A stretch of DNA of 64,000 nt from Spiroplasma attinicola (GCF_023509825.1 NZ_JAKQXY010000001.1:434001-498000); one strand, 5' to 3'; shown: positions 55,655 through 64,000, numbered from the stretch's first letter. Notes: generated by a model not told the origin, from the sequence alone. Made by a program: numbers and translations.

Positions 55655-58471
55655 ATGAAGAATGAAGATTATACAAATGAGTATGATGTAGAGAAAAAAT
55701 TCATAGAGGTTATAACTACAAATTGATATAGGTTTAATAGTTTATCTTCTTATGAAGAATTATTATTAAATTTTAGAGAAAAAATTAATTTAATTAATAA
55801 AGATGTTTTAAATAATACATTTTTGACAGATAGTGAATTTAATGAAATAGTTGTTTATCTTGAAAAGCAATCTATTTTTGAAGCATCTCAATTATTAAGA
55901 AATGCAAGAATAGATATAATTAAAAGAAATGGTCATACACTTTATTTAAAATTAGTTGATGTTAATGATATTGAAAAAAATAATTTTGAAGTTGCACATC
56001 AAATTTCTGTTGCAGGAAAATATTCTGGAAGATTTGATGTTACTCTTTTAATTAATGGAATTCCTTTTGTTCAAATAGAACTTAAAAAACCCGGAGTAGA
56101 GATTAATCAAGCATTTAATCAAGTCTTAAGATATAAAAGAGATAACAATTATATGGGTCTTTTTAACTTTGTTCAGTTATTTGTTATTTCAAATGAACAA
56201 AATACCAAGTATTTTGCTAATAATGATTTAGATGTTATGAAAATGAAAAGCAACTCATTTTTTTGATTAAATAAAAATAATAAATTGATGAATTCCCTCT
56301 ATGAATTTGAAGAAAATTTTCTTTTTTGCCCATTTTTATTTAAAGTAGTTTTTGAATATATGATAGATAGTAAGCAAGATAAAAAATTATATGTTATGCG
56401 ACCATATCAAATTTATGCTTTTGAAGCATTAAAAAAAATATGCTTAAAAGATGAAAAAAATGGATATTGTTTTCATTCTACAGGTTCAGGTAAAACTTTA
56501 ACTTCGTTTAAATTTGCTTTTGAAATGAGTCAAAAAAAAGAAATTGATAAAGTATTTTTTCTAGTAGATAGAAAAGATCTTGATGATAAAACTATTGATG
56601 ATTTTAATTCTTATATGTCTTCTTCAATTGATGATTTTACTAATATTAAAAAATCTAATTTTTTAATTAAAGATATAAAAAATAGTAGCAAGAAACTTAT
56701 TATCTCAACAATTAATAAATTAGCTTATATATTAAAGGGTAAAGTTAATGAATTAAAGGAATATAAAAATAAAAAAATAATTTTTATATTTGATGAATGT
56801 CATAGATCACAAGCAGGTCAAATGCGAAAACTTATTCAAGATTATTTTACTAATGCCCTTTATTATGGATTTACAGGTACACCTATTTTTAATGAAGAAG
56901 ATGCTAAAAATGAAAATGCAAAACTTACTTCTTTATATTTTAATAAACCAGTTCACACTTATACTTTAAAAGAAGCTATAGGTGATAGAAATGTTTTGCC
57001 TCTGTGTATTGATTATATAAAAACTGTAAAAATAAGAGATGAAACTGTTTTATTGGATAAAACTGTACAAGGAATTAACTATGAAGAAGCTTTACTTGAT
57101 GATAAAAGGTGTAATCTTGTAATTGAAGATGTATTAAAACATTTTGAACAAAAAACAGTCGGGCGAAGATATAATGCAATATTTGCTTGTCAATCAATTT
57201 CTTTATTAATTAAATATTATGATTTGCTAGTAAGTAATAAAAATAATCTAAAAATTGCTGCTATTTATTCATATAATCCTAATGAAGAAGTTAAAGAAAA
57301 TGATAATTTAGATATTGCTAAAGATAAAATGGTTGAAATCATTGAAGAATATAATAGAAGAATTGAAAATAACTCAAATTTTAACCTTACTATATATAAT
57401 CAATATGAAAGAGATGTAATAAATAACTTTAGAAATAAAAATTTAGATATTTTACTTGTTGTTGATAAATGTCTTACTGGAATGGATTTTAAAAGATGTA
57501 ATACGCTTTATTTAGATAAATCAATGAAAATGCATGGTTTAATACAGGCTATTTCCAGAACAATTAGAGTGTATGATGATCAAAAAATATGTGGAAATAT
57601 TATTTGTTACCAAACTTCTAAAAAAACTATGGATACAGCATTAGCACATTTTAATAATGATCAAGATGTTTATAATGATGTAACATTGGAACCATTAAAA
57701 ATCTTAATAGAAAAATTAAATGATGCTTATGAAAATAGTTTAGAATGCCATAGAAAAATTAGTTCATCAAAGTCTGAAATAAATAAGGTTGAGTTTGTGA
57801 AAGCGTTTCGAGAATTAATGCATTTTTATAATAAAATTAAGAATTATGTGGATTTTAATATAAATAATACAAAAATGAAAATGAAATCATATTTTAATAT
57901 GCAAAGTTCATATAAAGATATTTATATTGAAATTAAACCAGATTTAAAAAGAGAATCAATTTTAAATGATATTGATTTTGAAATAAATTTATTAAGTAGA
58001 GTAAATGTTAATTTTGATTATTTAGTAGAATTATTAAAGAATTATCAAAATGAACATAAAAATAAAAAAGGTACTAAGAATTCAATTTCTAAGATTAATA
58101 AATTAATTTTAGAAATTAATGATAAATCTAAACAAAAACTTATAAGAAAATTTGTTGATTCTTTTATGAATGAAAACGAAGAAGGGTTGTATTCAGATCC
58201 AATAAATAAATATGAACAATTTATAAATTATGAAAGAAATCAAGAAATTACAAAAATTAGTAAAAAATATAATATTGATAGAAAAAAGTTAGAAAAGATA
58301 ATTGGGAATTATTCTTTTTATCAAGATGATGTTGAACTTAATAGAAAAATTATGTATTTAAATAAAGACAATAAAAACATGGGTTATAAAGAAATTTTAA
58401 ATATGTCTAAAAATTTACCTATTGATATTAAAACTTTTTTTAATAAATACGATGCTATAATTATGTATTAA
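55655..58471 (+). CDS. hsdR: Type I restriction enzyme, restriction subunit HsdR
   Basis: Motor and nuclease subunit (938 residues). The N-terminal PD-(D/E)xK nuclease has Asp128 in GRFDVTL and Glu142-x-Lys144 in VQIELKKPG. The helicase has motif I HSTGSGKTLTS (275-282), motif II FDECHRSQAG, motif III YGFTGTPIF, and a second RecA domain with CLTGMDFKRCNTLYLDK and the motif VI-like IQAISRTIRVY. The Lys-rich C-terminal helices would bind HsdM. ATG 55655 has AAGGAG 8 nt upstream. hsdM begins 30 bp downstream. Confidence 0.95.
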
Positions 58472-58501
58472 AGATATTTGGAAGTTGGAGAAATTTGTAT
58501 A

Positions 58502-60091
58502 ATGAATCAAGAAATTAAGCAAAGAAATGAATTGCATGCGAAACTTTGAAATATGGCAGATTCACTTAGAAGCACTAGTGGAATGGAAGCTAATGAATTT
58601 AAGGATTATATTTTAGGTTTGATTTTTTATAGATATATTAGTGAACATCAAGTTAATGAATTTAATGAGAAGCTTCATATTAGTGTTAAAGATTTTTATA
58701 AAGAAGATCCAAGAGAATGCAGAAATGCTGCTATTGAAAGTTTAGCATTGGGTTATTTTATTGAACCTGAATATTTATTTGAAAATCTTGTTATTGATAT
58801 AGTGCAAGGAAAATTTGAAATAAAAAAAATAGCTGATGCTTTTAAGAATTATTCAGATTCAACAAAAGGAAAAGAAAGCGAAGAAGAACTTTCAAATTTA
58901 TTTAATGATGTTAATTTAGCTTCAGAAAAATTAGGAAAAACATATAAAGATAAAGGAGAATTAATTGCTAAATTAATTAAGTCAATAAATAATATTGACT
59001 TTAAATTTTTAGATAGTCAAATAGATGTTCTTGGTGACGCATATGAATATTTAATTGGACAATTTGCTGCTAGTGGTGGGAAAAAAGCTGGCGAATTTTA
59101 TACACCTCAACAAGTTTCTAAATTACTTAGTTTAATTGTTACTGAAAATCTTGAAAAAGTTAAATTTATTAGTGATCCTACTTGTGGTTCTGGTTCATTA
59201 TTAATTCAAGTTGCTAATAAATTAAAAGAAAAAAATATTGATTTTGCAAAAATTTATGGTCAAGAATTAAAAACTAATACTTGTAATTTAGCAAAAATGA
59301 ATTTATTAGTTCACAGTATTGATTTTAATAAATTTTCTATTTATCAAGGTGATACTCTTAAGCATCCTAGTGAAGATCAAAAAGAATATGGGAAGATGGA
59401 TATTGTTGTTGCTAATCCGCCTTTTAGTGCTATTTGAGAACCAAATGTAATGATGGAAAAAGATGAACGATTTTCAGGTGCTGGCAGACTTGCACCAAAA
59501 TCTTATGCTGATTATGCTTTTGTTGAACATATGATACATAATTTAAGTCAAACTGGATGCATGGCAGTTGTTTTACCTCATGGTCCATTATTTAGAGGTG
59601 GCGCAGAAGAAGTAATTAGAAAATATTTAGTTGAAACAAGAAATTATTTAGATACTGTAATTGGTTTACCTGAAAATTTATTTTACGGTACAACAATAGC
59701 AGCATGTATATGTGTTTTTAAGAAAAATAAGGTTAATAATGATGTTTATTTTATTAATGCAAGCAATGATTTTGATAAGGGTAAAAAACAAAATTTCTTA
59801 AGAGATGAACATATTAAAAAAATAGTTGATGCATACTCATCAAAGAAAGAGATAGAAAAATATGCTCATTTAGCGACATTAGAAGAACTTAAAAAGAATC
59901 AATTCAATTTAAATATTTCTCGATATGTAGATATATTTGAAGAAGAAATTGATAAAAAACAAGTTAAAGAAGAAATTAAACAATTATCAGGTGAAATTTC
60001 AAATTTATTAAAAGAATTTAATGAATTGGTTCCTAAAGTAGAAGAAGCAATTCAAAAAGCACTAAACTTTGAAGAAGATGAAAAAGTCTAA
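58502..60091 (+). CDS. hsdM: Type I restriction enzyme, modification subunit HsdM
   Basis: N6-adenine methyltransferase subunit (529 residues). The helical N-terminal domain (MADSLRSTSGMEANEFKDYI) is followed by GEFYTPQQVSKLL, SAM-binding motif I DPTCGSGSLLIQ, and catalytic motif IV ANPPFSAIW. ATG 58502 with GGAG upstream gives the full N-terminus, reading TGA as Trp in KLWNMADS. The stop overlaps the convergent hsdS1 stop by 4 bp, so the specificity subunit is not transcribed with hsdRM. Confidence 0.96.
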
Positions 60092-61197
60092 TGCTTATTT
60101 TCTTTTATTAATAGTTTTATAAAATTAGTTATTAGATTATCGTAATAATTTATAAGTTCATTTAATTTAATAATAAATTTATATATATTAGAATAATTAA
60201 AATTTACTATTTTTAATACTGTGTTTTCAATTAAAGATTTATTAATTGATTGTTGCGCAGAGCCACTTTTTATTAATTTAAAATAACTGATAGCATTTCT
60301 AATTTCAAAAAATAATTTTTGATTTGATTCGATTTTGGCTATTGATTGGTTAAAAGCTGTTACTTCACTTGCGAAGGAAACTTTAGATATTCTTGGTTCA
60401 ATTATTGAAAATAATATATCATATTTTTTTGCTAATGCACTTTTAGTTAAACCTAGTTGTGTAATCTTTTTGTCAGATTTTTTTGAAATAATAGTATTAG
60501 TTAATTTTCCTGAATTAATTCAGGGAATTTCTCCGTCTCACAATAATTTATTTGATGTACTAGGCGTTCCTCCTATAATAATTTTTGCAATATTTTTGAA
60601 TTTAATTAAATTGCCTTTAAGCAAATTGTAGTGTTTTTCAAAAAGTAAGATGGTTTTTTGAAGAGTTAAATTTAGTAATTTATTCATATTTTCTAATGGT
60701 TCAATAATAGCAATTAAGTTCTTCATATCAATTTGAACATTTTCTAAAGTGTCTATTCTAATACAATTTGAATACTTTAGAAAAAGCGTTTCATTTTGTT
60801 CAATAATATCTATTATTTGTTTTTGAACTTTTAAAGAAACAAATTTATTATTTATTACTCAATTAAAACTAGAAAGTCTTAACGAAGGAACTGTAGAACC
60901 TACTGAATATTTTTTAAAATTATTTGAATATTTAATTAGAAAATAATATAAATATTTATTTAATAATTTATTTGTATTGTTAGATTTTATTGCATAAGTT
61001 CTTTGGTGCAAATCAAACTTACCATTAAAATATTTTGGAGTAAAATCTCCTTCGCCAGGAACAATTATATACTCTCCATCAAATAAAAATTTATCACTTT
61101 TTTTAGCTTCTTTTGATCTATCAAAAAATATAAATTTACCTGTAGAATTTGAATCAACAGTATTTGATTTTCCATTTTTAATACTTATAACACCCAT
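60088..61197 (-). CDS. hsdS: Type I specificity subunit HsdS1 (apparently expressed copy)
   Basis: 369 residues with two target-recognition domains. TRD1 (about 5-120) starts almost at the initiator (MGVISIKNG) and ends near VPSLRLSSF; the central helix KQIIDIIEQNETLFLKY to DMKNLI (~125-160) is encoded by repeat copy A; TRD2 follows with IGGTPSTSNKLLWDGEIPWI, a classic TRD start; a C-terminal helix closes the protein. AAGGAGAG (61205-61212) lies 8 nt upstream of the ATG, and the 17-bp inverted repeat spans the ATG. It converges on hsdM with a 4-bp overlap of the stops. Confidence 0.93.
60732..60832 (-). repeat. hsdS central repeat, copy A
   Basis: 101 bp matching copy B (62418-62518) in inverted orientation with 3 mismatches, all within one 4-base block. 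Encodes the conserved central helix of HsdS1. Confidence 0.95.
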
Positions 61198-61205
61198 TAT
61201 TGAAC
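61189..61205. repeat. 17-bp inverted repeat at the hsdS1 start codon
   Basis: AACACCCATTATTGAAC; its exact reverse complement occurs at 61994-62010 around the hsdS2 start codon. The two copies enclose the recombinase gene and its control signals. Confidence 0.95.
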
Positions 61206-61259
61206 TCTCCTTTTGTATTATTTAATTTTACCTTATATAACTTTATTGGAGGTAAAAAA
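61206..61259. promoter_or_regulatory. 54-bp divergent control segment between hsdS1 and the recombinase gene
   Basis: Carries the ribosome binding sites of both genes (AAGGAGAG for hsdS1 on the minus strand, GGAGG at 61248-61252 for the recombinase) and AT-rich promoter-like boxes (TATATAA region at about 61234-61240). It lies inside the 17-bp inverted repeats, so it would turn with the segment. Confidence 0.6.
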
Positions 61260-61976
61260 ATGAAAGAATATATAAATTATTTAAAAAGAAATAAATATTC
61301 TAAAAATACAATTATTACATATAAAAGTATTTTAGAAATTTATAAAGATGATTTAAGAGATATTAGGTTGATTAAAAAAAGATTAACTTATTATTTTAAA
61401 AGTCCTAATACGGTTTGAACACACTATAATGTAATTTCTTCTTATTTAAAATGATCTAAAGATAAAAGATTAGAATTGTTAAAAGAAATGAAATTACCTA
61501 GAATTCCAAAGAAATTTATGGTTGTCTTTAATAAAAAGTATTTGTTATCAAAAACTGAAATTAAAGATATTGATAATTTGGAAAAAATTAATAAAAAAAT
61601 GATAATTAGGTTTCTATTTGAAACGGGTTTAAGAGCTTGTGAATTAAAACAAATTGTTTCAATAAATAAGAAAACAATAACAATAATTGGCAAAGGAAAT
61701 AAAATTAGAGAAGTATTTCATAATTATGAAACAACAAGCAAAATTAAAACAAGAAATGTTACAACTAAAACAATTAGATTATGAACTAAAGAAATTTTAG
61801 GAAAAAAATATACGCCTCATTCAATAAGAAGATCTCATGCAACTCATTTACTTTTAAAAGGAGCAAATCCTAAAATGGTAATGATGCAATTAGGTCATGA
61901 AAAAGTTGAAACAACATTTAGATATTTACAATTGTCAATTGATCAAAATAAAAAAATATACGACAAGTTCTATTAA
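61260..61976 (+). CDS. Tyrosine recombinase (DNA invertase of the hsdS locus)
   Basis: 238-residue phage-integrase/Xer-type recombinase. The N-terminal SAM-like core-binding domain (KRNKYSKNTIITYKSIL) is followed by the catalytic domain with Arg125 (FETGLRACEL), His187-x-x-Arg190 (TPHSIRRSHATHLLLKGAN), His213 (MQLGHEKVETT) and the nucleophile Tyr222 (FRYLQL). All catalytic residues are present. Position between inverted hsdS genes matches the site-specific recombinases that shuffle hsdS in Mycoplasma pulmonis (hsd loci) and in pneumococcal type I systems. GGAGG precedes the ATG. A strong terminator follows directly. Confidence 0.92.
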
Positions 61977-61993
61977 AAAGAACTTGTTTTTTT
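61963..61993 (+). terminator. Terminator of the recombinase gene
   Basis: Stem ACAAGTTCT/AGAACTTGT (61963-61971 with 61979-61987) followed by T7. It ends just before the 17-bp repeat at the hsdS2 start, so it would block read-through into hsdS2 in this orientation. Confidence 0.9.
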
Positions 61994-62010
61994 GTTCAAT
62001 AATGGGTGTT
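61994..62010. repeat. 17-bp inverted repeat at the hsdS2 start codon
   Basis: GTTCAATAATGGGTGTT, exact reverse complement of 61189-61205; contains the ATG of hsdS2. Confidence 0.95.
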
Positions 62011-63117
62011 TTCAAACTTAAAGATATTGCAACTATAAATATGTGCAAAAGAGTTTTTTCAAAAGAAACTTCTAAAAATGGAGATATACCATTTTATAAA
62101 ATTGGAACATTAGGAAACAAACCTGATTCGTTTATCAAGAAAGAACTTTTTTTATATTTAAAAAGTAAATATAGATATCCAGAATTGGGTGATTCATTAA
62201 TTAGTTGTAGTGGAACAATAGGTAAAGTTATAGAATTTAATGGTAAAGAAGCTTATTTTCAAGATAGTAATATAGTTTGATTAACTACATCAAAATTAAT
62301 AAAAAAATATACATATTATTGGTTATCAAAAAAACCTTTTAAAGGCACTCAATGAGGTACAATAAAAAGACTTTATAATTCAGATATAGAAAATACTTTG
62401 ATTTTTGTACCATCATTAAAAGTTCAAAAACAAATAATAGATATTATTGAACAAAATGAACTCCTTTTTCTAAAGTATTCAAATTGTATTAGAATAGACA
62501 CTTTAGAAAATGTTCAAACTGACATGAAAAACTTAATAGAAATAGTTAAACCACTAGAAATACTTAAAAATAATTTAATTAATCAATCAAATTGTTTTTC
62601 AAAATATTTAAAACTAATATCAAAACAATATAATATTTTAGAAAAAATGAATAAAAATTGTATTTTTGTTAAAGGTGAGTCAGTTTCTAATTCTTTAGAA
62701 GGAAAAACATTATTTTTAAATGTATCTGCAGCAAATAATAACCCCAATAAATATTGTGATAACGAACCAAATATTTTTCCTAAAGATATAACACTTTCAC
62801 TAGATGGTAATATTGGTCTTGTTAATAACAATTTATTAGGCTTTAATGGATATTTATATAAAATTGAATCAAAAACTATACCTAACTGACAAATATATTA
62901 TTCACTTAAACATAAAATTAATCAAAATATTATTAAATTAAATGAAACTGGCATTACTATTAAACATAGTAATAATTCAAAAAAAGACTTATTAATTTTA
63001 GATTTTAAACAAAAAATAATTTTTGAAAATATTTTTATTTTAGAAATAAATTTAAAACAACAAATAAATTTAATTAATAAACAAATCAAAAAAATGAGTG
63101 AAATATTGACTAAATAG
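62002..63117 (+). CDS. Type I specificity subunit HsdS2 (apparently silent copy)
   Basis: 371 residues, complete. TRD1 begins MGVFKLKDIATINMC and includes GDSLISCSGTIGKVIEF, a common TRD feature; the central helix (KVQKQIIDIIEQNELLFLKY) is from repeat copy B; TRD2 includes GESVSNSLEGKTLFLNVSA and LSLDGNIGLV. TRD1 and TRD2 sequences differ from those of HsdS1. Directly upstream lies the recombinase terminator, and there is no ribosome binding site (TTTTTTTGTTCAATA before ATG), so it should not be expressed in this orientation. It converges on hsdS3. Confidence 0.9.
62418..62549 (+). repeat. hsdS central repeat, copy B
   Basis: 62418-62518 matches copy A inverted (3 mismatches in 101 bp); 62443-62549 matches copy C inverted (3 mismatches in 107 bp). 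The mismatches are the same 4-base block (CTCC here, ACGC in A and C). Confidence 0.95.
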
Positions 63118-63126
63118 AAAAAATTA

Positions 63127-64000
63127 TTATTTTATTAAAAGATTTATTATGGATTTTTTAATTTCTTTAATTTTATTTTTTAAAATTAAGAATTTTATAT
63201 AAAATTCATTAATGTATTCATCATTTGCAGTTTTTTTAATCATTTTTAAATTTAAAATATCATCAATTGTAATATTTTTTTGTACAGCTCCTGTAGCATG
63301 TTTTATTAGAAAGTTATTTTGTTTTATTATTGCAATTTTAATATTTAAAGGAATATTACTTCTTAAAACTAAGGTTCTTTGATTTGAAACTCAATTATTT
63401 TCATATACTATAGAAGCAGTTCCAATTGTCCCAGATAAACCTGTAATAACATCTCCAATGTTAATTAAGTTATTCTTTGTTATATTTGTTTTCTCAAATT
63501 TAAATTTATTATTAATATTTTTAACAGTAAAAATTTTATATACTCCATGTAAATTTTTATCAGAATATTTGTATGTATAACCAGCAGATTTTCAATTTAT
63601 ATTTTCTTTAATAAAATTATTAATTTCAAAAGATCTAAAGAAAAAAGATTTTTCAATAAATTTTATTATATTCAAAATTTTATTTTCATATAATTCAAAA
63701 GGCTTAACTATTTCTATTAAGTTTTTCATGTCAGTTTGAACATTTTCTAAAGTGTCTATTCTAATACAATTTGAATACTTTAGAAAAAGCGTTTCATTTT
63801 GTTCAATAATGTCAATTATCTTTTGTTGTAGTTCTATAGTGGGAATAAAAATATTTAATTCTGAAACAGTTGAGGGATTAAATTGAGGTTGACCACTACC
63901 TTCAATGAGTTTTTTTAATTGATTTTTGTATTTATTAGTTTTAGTTCAATAATAGAAATATTTATTATTTAATTTTGAATCATCAAAATTATATCTAACT
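63127..64000 (-). CDS. Type I specificity subunit HsdS3 (N-terminus outside window)
   Basis: Open from the window end to TAA 63127-63129. The visible part holds the end of TRD1 (KLIEGSGQPQFNPSTVSELN), the central helix from repeat copy C (IIDIIEQNETLFLKY), and a complete TRD2 (INWKSAGYTYKYSDKNLHGV, then GDVITGLSGTIGTASIVYEN) with a C-terminal helix. Whether it has a start codon with the 17-bp repeat cannot be seen. Probably another silent cassette feeding TRD sequences. Confidence 0.85.
63704..63810 (-). repeat. hsdS central repeat, copy C
   Basis: 107 bp matching copy B in inverted orientation with 3 mismatches; same orientation as copy A. Confidence 0.95.

Follow-up and report, generated by a model that had tools for sequence, protein, structure and literature searches.

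A candidate inverting Type I restriction-modification locus with an internal tyrosine recombinase in Spiroplasma attinicola

A 64,000-nucleotide stretch of the Spiroplasma attinicola genome (GCF_023509825.1, NZ_JAKQXY010000001.1:434001-498000; hereafter the window) ends within a Type I restriction-modification locus that contains several specificity (hsdS) genes and a tyrosine recombinase gene. The genome comprises 836 kb in four contigs, and spiroplasmas (S. platyhelix) are the closest relatives that have a name. Coordinates are those of the window (G000:C1:434001-498000); positions in our locus file L005 equal the window position minus 52999. The gene order was hsdR-hsdM, hsdS1 (S1, minus strand), the recombinase gene (plus), S2 (plus), S3 (minus) and S4 (plus), followed by ribosomal protein genes, and the locus extended 1.6 kb beyond the window end, up to S4. 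S3 was interrupted by the window end at 64000; its remainder and S4 were read from adjoining DNA. With TGA as tryptophan (code 4), the frames of S1, the recombinase, S2 and S3 were open in a translation of the window and neighbouring DNA. Translation with code 11 was rejected, since it broke the hsdS frames that code 4 opened. All four hsdS frames and the recombinase were intact. No second copy of the locus was found in the four-contig assembly. The genes and the two elements flanking the recombinase gene were:

55655..58471, plus strand: hsdR, restriction subunit of 938 amino acids (aa); HSDR_N, SWI2_SNF2, T1R_D3-like and EcoR124_C; TIGR00348 over the cut-off
58502..60091, plus strand: hsdM, N6-adenine methyltransferase of 529 aa; DPTCGSG and NPPF motifs; N6_Mtase (1.3e-105) and HsdM_N; TIGR00497 over the cut-off
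60088..61197, minus strand: hsdS1, 369 aa; Methylase_S in two stretches; predicted ON, ribosome site GGAG directly upstream
61206..61259, no strand: intergenic region with ribosome sites both ways, GGAGAG facing S1 and GGAGG facing the recombinase
61260..61976, plus strand: tyrosine recombinase, 238 aa; Phage_integrase (1.1e-15), XerD 1a0p (1.6e-10); family residues R, K, HSIR, H and Y
61962..61988, plus strand: terminator hairpin, GACAAGTTC...GAACTTGTT and a T run, between the recombinase and S2; fold z −3.4
62002..63117, plus strand: hsdS2, 371 aa; Methylase_S (1.5e-20); predicted OFF in the assembled state, behind the terminator and without a ribosome site
63127-64248, minus strand (63127..64000 inside the window): hsdS3, 373 aa; Methylase_S; predicted ON, AGAGAGG upstream
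64381-65556, plus strand (window numbering, outside the window): hsdS4; Methylase_S

HsdR, HsdM and HsdS were encoded together, HsdR and HsdM over the Pfam and NCBIfam cut-offs and Methylase_S present in 4/4 specificity subunits; by its genes, the locus is a Type I restriction-modification system. The S-protein profile matched the solved S subunits 1yf2 (6.5e-38), 7bst and 1ydx. The HsdM at this locus was the sole strong HsdM in the genome. An alignment of 13 relatives placed the catalytic residues R, K, HxxR, H/W and Y in the recombinase, and no other gene of the genome matched the tyrosine recombinase family.

The hsdS genes shared inverted repeats in their central regions. The repeat between S1 and S2 (60690-60837 / 62413-62560) was 148 bp long with 91% identity, and that between S2 and S3 (62401-62609 / 63644-63852) 209 bp long with 81%; the longest exact stretches were 55+45 bp and 86 bp, respectively. 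The repeat of S4 was identical to that of S1 over 119 bp. In the core of about 100 bp, a single cluster of three mismatches set S2 apart from the other copies. A 99-bp block was 88–100% identical within this genome and 78–83% identical to sister species. The recognition halves flanking the repeats were unrelated, except that the first bases, at the start codon, were common to S1 and S2 and likewise to S3 and S4. At least two hsdS genes with different recognition domains thus have inverted repeats in common, as is characteristic of inverting Type I systems, and these repeats lie both before the first domain (5' sites) and between the two domains (central sites). A sequence-only reading of the window had proposed that Type I specificities are shuffled here through inverted repeats in the hsdS centres, with a recombinase close by, and gene content and repeats support a locus of this kind. 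Its repeat geometry (S1/S2 and S2/S3 inverted, S1/S3 direct), its count of three core mismatches and its statement that the recognition domains on either side differ were also borne out. It had counted three hsdS genes, one fewer than the four present, S4 lying beyond the window.

The central repeats enclosed a short motif, GTTCAATAAT-NNNN-ATTA, in two copies 99 bp apart, the second of which was degenerate in S2 and S3. The single recombination hot spot assumed by the sequence-only reading is therefore better described as two short sites. The pattern GTTYAATAATNNNNATTA occurred 8 times in the 836-kb genome, 7 of them inside the locus, and its reversed control gave 0 occurrences over the same 836 kb. 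The sole site-like sequence outside the locus, GTTTAATAATTTCAATTA (G000:C2:82596-82613), was a single copy. S1 and S2 also carried the site core at their start codons, on the strand opposite (relative to the gene) to the central copies. Since this DNA core lies at start codons as well as, on the other strand, in coding region, the protein motif IIDIIE alone is not a sufficient explanation for it. These start-codon copies, which matched exactly over 17 bp in inverted orientation (GTTCAATAATGGGTGTT; 2 matches versus 0.12 expected), enclosed the recombinase gene. The earlier reading had located the central repeats correctly but missed this repeat and the on/off cassette that it may bound. The sites within the window were:

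60699..60716, plus strand: S1 distal central site, GTTCAATAAT-AGCA-ATTA; partner in S4
60798..60815, plus strand: S1 proximal central site, GTTCAATAAT-ATCT-ATTA; partner in S2
61189..61205, minus strand: 5' site of S1, which extends across the start codon, GTTCAATAATGGGTGTT; left border of the putative invertible cassette
61994..62010, plus strand: 5' site of S2, with the S1 sequence in inverted orientation; right border of the cassette; no ribosome site ahead of S2
62435..62452, minus strand: S2 proximal central site, class ATCT; partner in S1
62532..62551, minus strand: S2 distal central site, degenerate GTTTAACTAT-TTCT-ATTAAG; partner in S3
63702..63721, plus strand: S3 distal central site, degenerate GCTTAACTAT-TTCT-ATTAAG
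63801..63818, plus strand: S3 proximal central site, GTTCAATAAT-GTCA-ATTA; partner in S4

The locus held six site classes, each present twice in opposite orientation: GGGT (5' sites of S1/S2), GATT (5' sites of S3/S4), ATCT (proximal, S1/S2), GTCA (proximal, S3/S4), AGCA (distal, S1/S4) and the degenerate TTCT (distal, S2/S3). Partner sites agreed in their 4-base centre, and centres differed between classes. Tyrosine recombinases in general require identity of the overlap between partner sites. The shared centres of partners, together with the different centres of the classes, led us to hypothesize that one recombinase may run several separate switches. In relatives, GGCT or GGCA stood at the centre of the 5' sites, and one of three variants that encode identical residues, GTCA, GTCG or ATCA, at that of the central sites.

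The region between the S1 and S2 start codons had the anatomy of a putative invertible cassette. The hairpin ended a few bases ahead of the 5' site of S2, a gene without a ribosome site, and a terminator scan of the locus returned only this hairpin and its complement. A TTATATAAGGTAAAATTAAATAATACAAAGGAG-like sequence in the intergenic region was conserved in two sister species. Divergent promoters are presumed to lie there, as position and conservation suggest; a promoter consensus scan was not above shuffles (49 found versus 54 expected). S3 and S4, the second pair in head-to-head orientation, enclosed a 126-bp segment that held no recombinase. A decayed recombinase between them, considered from ATGAAAGAA, was rejected because its alignment was no better than shuffles (31 of 500 as good).

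Eleven relatives carried a recombinase between two head-to-head hsdS genes (S-rec-S loci), with 56–87% recombinase identity. The cassette design, with a hairpin and T run abutting a start that lacks a ribosome site and a ribosome site on the divergent hsdS, was found in 10/12 loci including this one (exceptions L015 and L016), and the hairpin sequences varied between genera. These two exceptions sit on contigs binned as Lactobacillaceae and Elusimicrobiota, yet hold a Mollicute locus with TGA as tryptophan, and are probably mis-binned. Relative to hsdR-hsdM, the recombinase pointed in the same direction in 4/12 loci and in the opposite direction in 8/12, while the geometry of the hsdS pair was constant. 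The recombinase tree requires at least three changes of orientation, and the orientation labels clustered on it no more strongly than shuffled ones did. S. platyhelix (L012) and a sister metagenome-assembled spiroplasma (L011), with HsdM proteins 79% identical, had the same hsdS geometry and differed only in the direction of the recombinase cassette. An additional family search for recombinases yielded no loci beyond those already collected.

Sites and recombinase also occurred together. Among 60 genomes of one Mollicute family, the one with the fullest sampling, all 8 with a recombinase had two to three central sites in opposed orientation, and 2 of the 52 without one (at the search threshold) had a central site, as a single copy each (hypergeometric probability about 2e-8, calculated by hand). 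One of these two, G063, holds a broken recombinase remnant nearby. A narrow pattern search for the 5' site with the centre GGCT gave one inverted pair in each of 2/198 genomes, both with a recombinase. Two close relatives of the recombinase (56–58%; L057:8580-9401 and L062:1453-2151) adjoined surface lipoprotein genes instead of hsdS, which suggests that the enzyme family may also switch surface proteins.

Comparison of hsdS halves pointed to exchange over evolutionary time. S4 matched L011b in its N-half (75% identity) but not in its C-half, which matched that of L012a (70%); the N-halves of S4 and L012a were far more distant (29%). S3 matched L012b in both halves (79% and 66%), and the N-half of S1 matched L053b and L055a (58%). 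Such half-by-half matches to different relatives indicate that halves were reassorted at the central region during evolution. The chromosomal place (uvrA to the ribosomal operon) is shared with L011, whose recombinase is 87% identical, and the hsdR and hsdM genes (55655-60091) belong to another family than those of L011 and S. platyhelix (HsdM 33%, HsdR 25% identity to the latter). The catalytic subunits seem to have been exchanged beside a retained S-recombinase-S module.

Gene content, sites, cassette anatomy, conservation, reassorted halves and the two orientations among relatives can all be read directly from the DNA. We consider it likely that the locus is phase-variable, with a single locus-encoded tyrosine recombinase acting on a start-codon cassette and on central half exchange, and with pairing determined by the site centre. 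The recombinase would recognise GTTCAATAAT-NNNN-ATTA sites at the start codons and in the central helix of each hsdS. In the cassette between the S1 and S2 start-codon sites, the recombinase gene lies between the terminator on one side and, on the other, a presumed promoter with a ribosome site facing outwards. Its inversion would link the promoter to either S1 or S2 and leave the other gene behind the terminator; from the assembled state, S1 would be turned off and S2 on. Inversions between central sites would exchange recognition halves among oppositely oriented hsdS genes. The 4-base centre would decide which sites pair, and 5' sites would consequently not cross with central sites. The S3/S4 pair would probably be switched in trans by the same recombinase, which is the least certain part of the scheme. 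A cell population would thereby offer its single HsdM and HsdR as many as 16 specificities, of which each cell would express two. A reachability model that lets only equal centres recombine predicted 64 arrangements, among which 16 N-C combinations and 48 pairs would be expressed; without the degenerate class, the prediction fell to 32 arrangements and 12 combinations. Catalysis, the pairing rule, which genes are expressed, how many specificities arise and what follows for methylation are our inferences from these features.

A broader version of this scheme is more speculative, and we hold it to be possible but rather doubtful. One recombinase would run mutually exclusive inversion switches through class-specific centres, and the six classes would join S1-S2, S3-S4, S1-S4 and S2-S3 in a closed ring, giving the 16 half combinations and 64 arrangements via inversions alone, with no gene deletion. 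In two-gene relatives, a 33-residue linker block would move like a token from one hsdS gene to the other. In 10 relatives with two hsdS genes (L011, L012, L016, L052-L056, L060 and L061), exactly one hsdS was long and its partner short. The long one contained, flanked by two copies of the site, a 33-residue block like LFLKYSNCVRIDTFENVQNDMKNL that was associated with neither half; in the present locus, each of the four hsdS genes was long. Passage of the block could alter the spacing of the DNA target. AlphaFold models of one long and one short HsdS were poor (mean pLDDT, the predicted local distance difference test score, 56 and 55), and the long model had an extra helix before the usual one.

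Several points weigh against the phase-variable reading. Inversion in living cells is deduced from sequence. The assembly (four contigs, technology unspecified) contains the 119-bp exact repeat, so that the assembled N-to-C pairing is possibly one state of many, or a misjoin. On the S4 side, the terminator was weak (z −1.5) and the S3/S4 5' sites deviated from the core; the S2/S3 distal sites were degenerate. The differences in orientation among relatives could be old, as these genomes are different species. In favour of the reading, central spacers agreed within each of 12 loci and differed synonymously between loci (0 of 200,000 shuffles); however, a shuffle among loci ignores the common ancestry of paralogues, and the agreement within loci could also come from gene conversion.

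General homologous recombination or gene conversion might exchange the repeats, with the recombinase a bystander. At 86–148 bp, the near-identical repeats are of sufficient length for RecA-type exchange, identity in the 99-bp block is higher within the genome than with sister species, and some hsdS inversions in pneumococcus are recombinase-independent. However, the 5' repeat is just 17 bp long, a short core is common to the 5' and central places on opposite strands, and site presence tracks recombinase presence among the 60 genomes; we regard this explanation as unlikely. Slightly less unlikely, though still improbable, is a locked copy of once-working machinery in which only S1, and perhaps S3, is used, with S2 and S4 as silent stores. 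The degenerate and deviating sites named above would fit such decay, but four hsdS frames and a recombinase frame with its catalytic residues are intact, and the S1/S2 5' sites are exact copies. Very improbable, in our view, is that the central repeat is only the conserved HsdM-binding helix of HsdS, recently duplicated, with nothing mobile. The protein motif QQxIIDIIEP is indeed conserved in all relatives, but identical DNA cores at start codons in another frame and strand, synonymous spacers that match within loci, a cassette in both orientations and reassorted halves all speak against it. The phase-variable locus described above remains our preferred reading.

Recombination-driven hsdS variation is established in pneumococcus and in Mycoplasma pulmonis. 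The hsd1/hsd2 loci of M. pulmonis (vip and hrs sites, HvsR) likewise belong to a Mollicute in which one recombinase inverts DNA at sites in hsdS and shuffles specificities (reportedly up to 16), with hvsR reported near the vsa surface-protein locus; here, a single locus has its recombinase inside the cassette between head-to-head hsdS genes. The Streptococcus pneumoniae cod locus (SpnD39III) with PsrA (CreX) also combines hsdR-hsdM, three hsdS genes and a tyrosine recombinase, and one recombinase serves several inverted-repeat pairs, with IR1-like sequence in IR2 and IR3. Its repeats are 15, 85 and 298 bp and its hsdS alleles change at the hsdSA position, whereas here start-codon sites with a terminator and ribosome site would choose between divergent genes. 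The Mycoplasma agalactiae hsd locus with int resembles ours in having several hsdS genes and an integrase-like gene, but has two hsdM and three hsdS, and rearrangement there is suspected, not demonstrated. The inverting Type I systems in the REBASE survey by Atack et al. 2020 (PMC7394358) also have inverted repeats, placed ahead of the first recognition domain and between both domains. That survey, in which Spiroplasma is not mentioned, requires a 20-bp exact repeat and would therefore miss 17-bp 5' sites. The S-rec-S loci that we found in S. platyhelix PALS-1 and other Mollicutes share the recombinase family, sites and terminator cassette; they have two hsdS genes, usually one long and one short, in contrast to the four long genes, six site classes and different hsdR/hsdM family of the present locus.

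Given the published psrA and int loci, a recombinase among hsdS genes is not new; the sequence-only reading had thought its arrangement possibly so, and the eleven relatives are further precedents. We did not find described in the open-licence literature, so that priority is uncertain, a terminator/ribosome-site cassette at hsdS start codons with an internal recombinase, the matched-centre rule or a four-gene ring. If the scheme is true, a short spacer code would let a single recombinase keep on/off switching and half-gene shuffling apart, and a reduced genome would gain a large epigenetic repertoire. The site and the recombinase would then form a concise signature for such switches across Mollicutes, also where published 20-bp repeat searches miss them.

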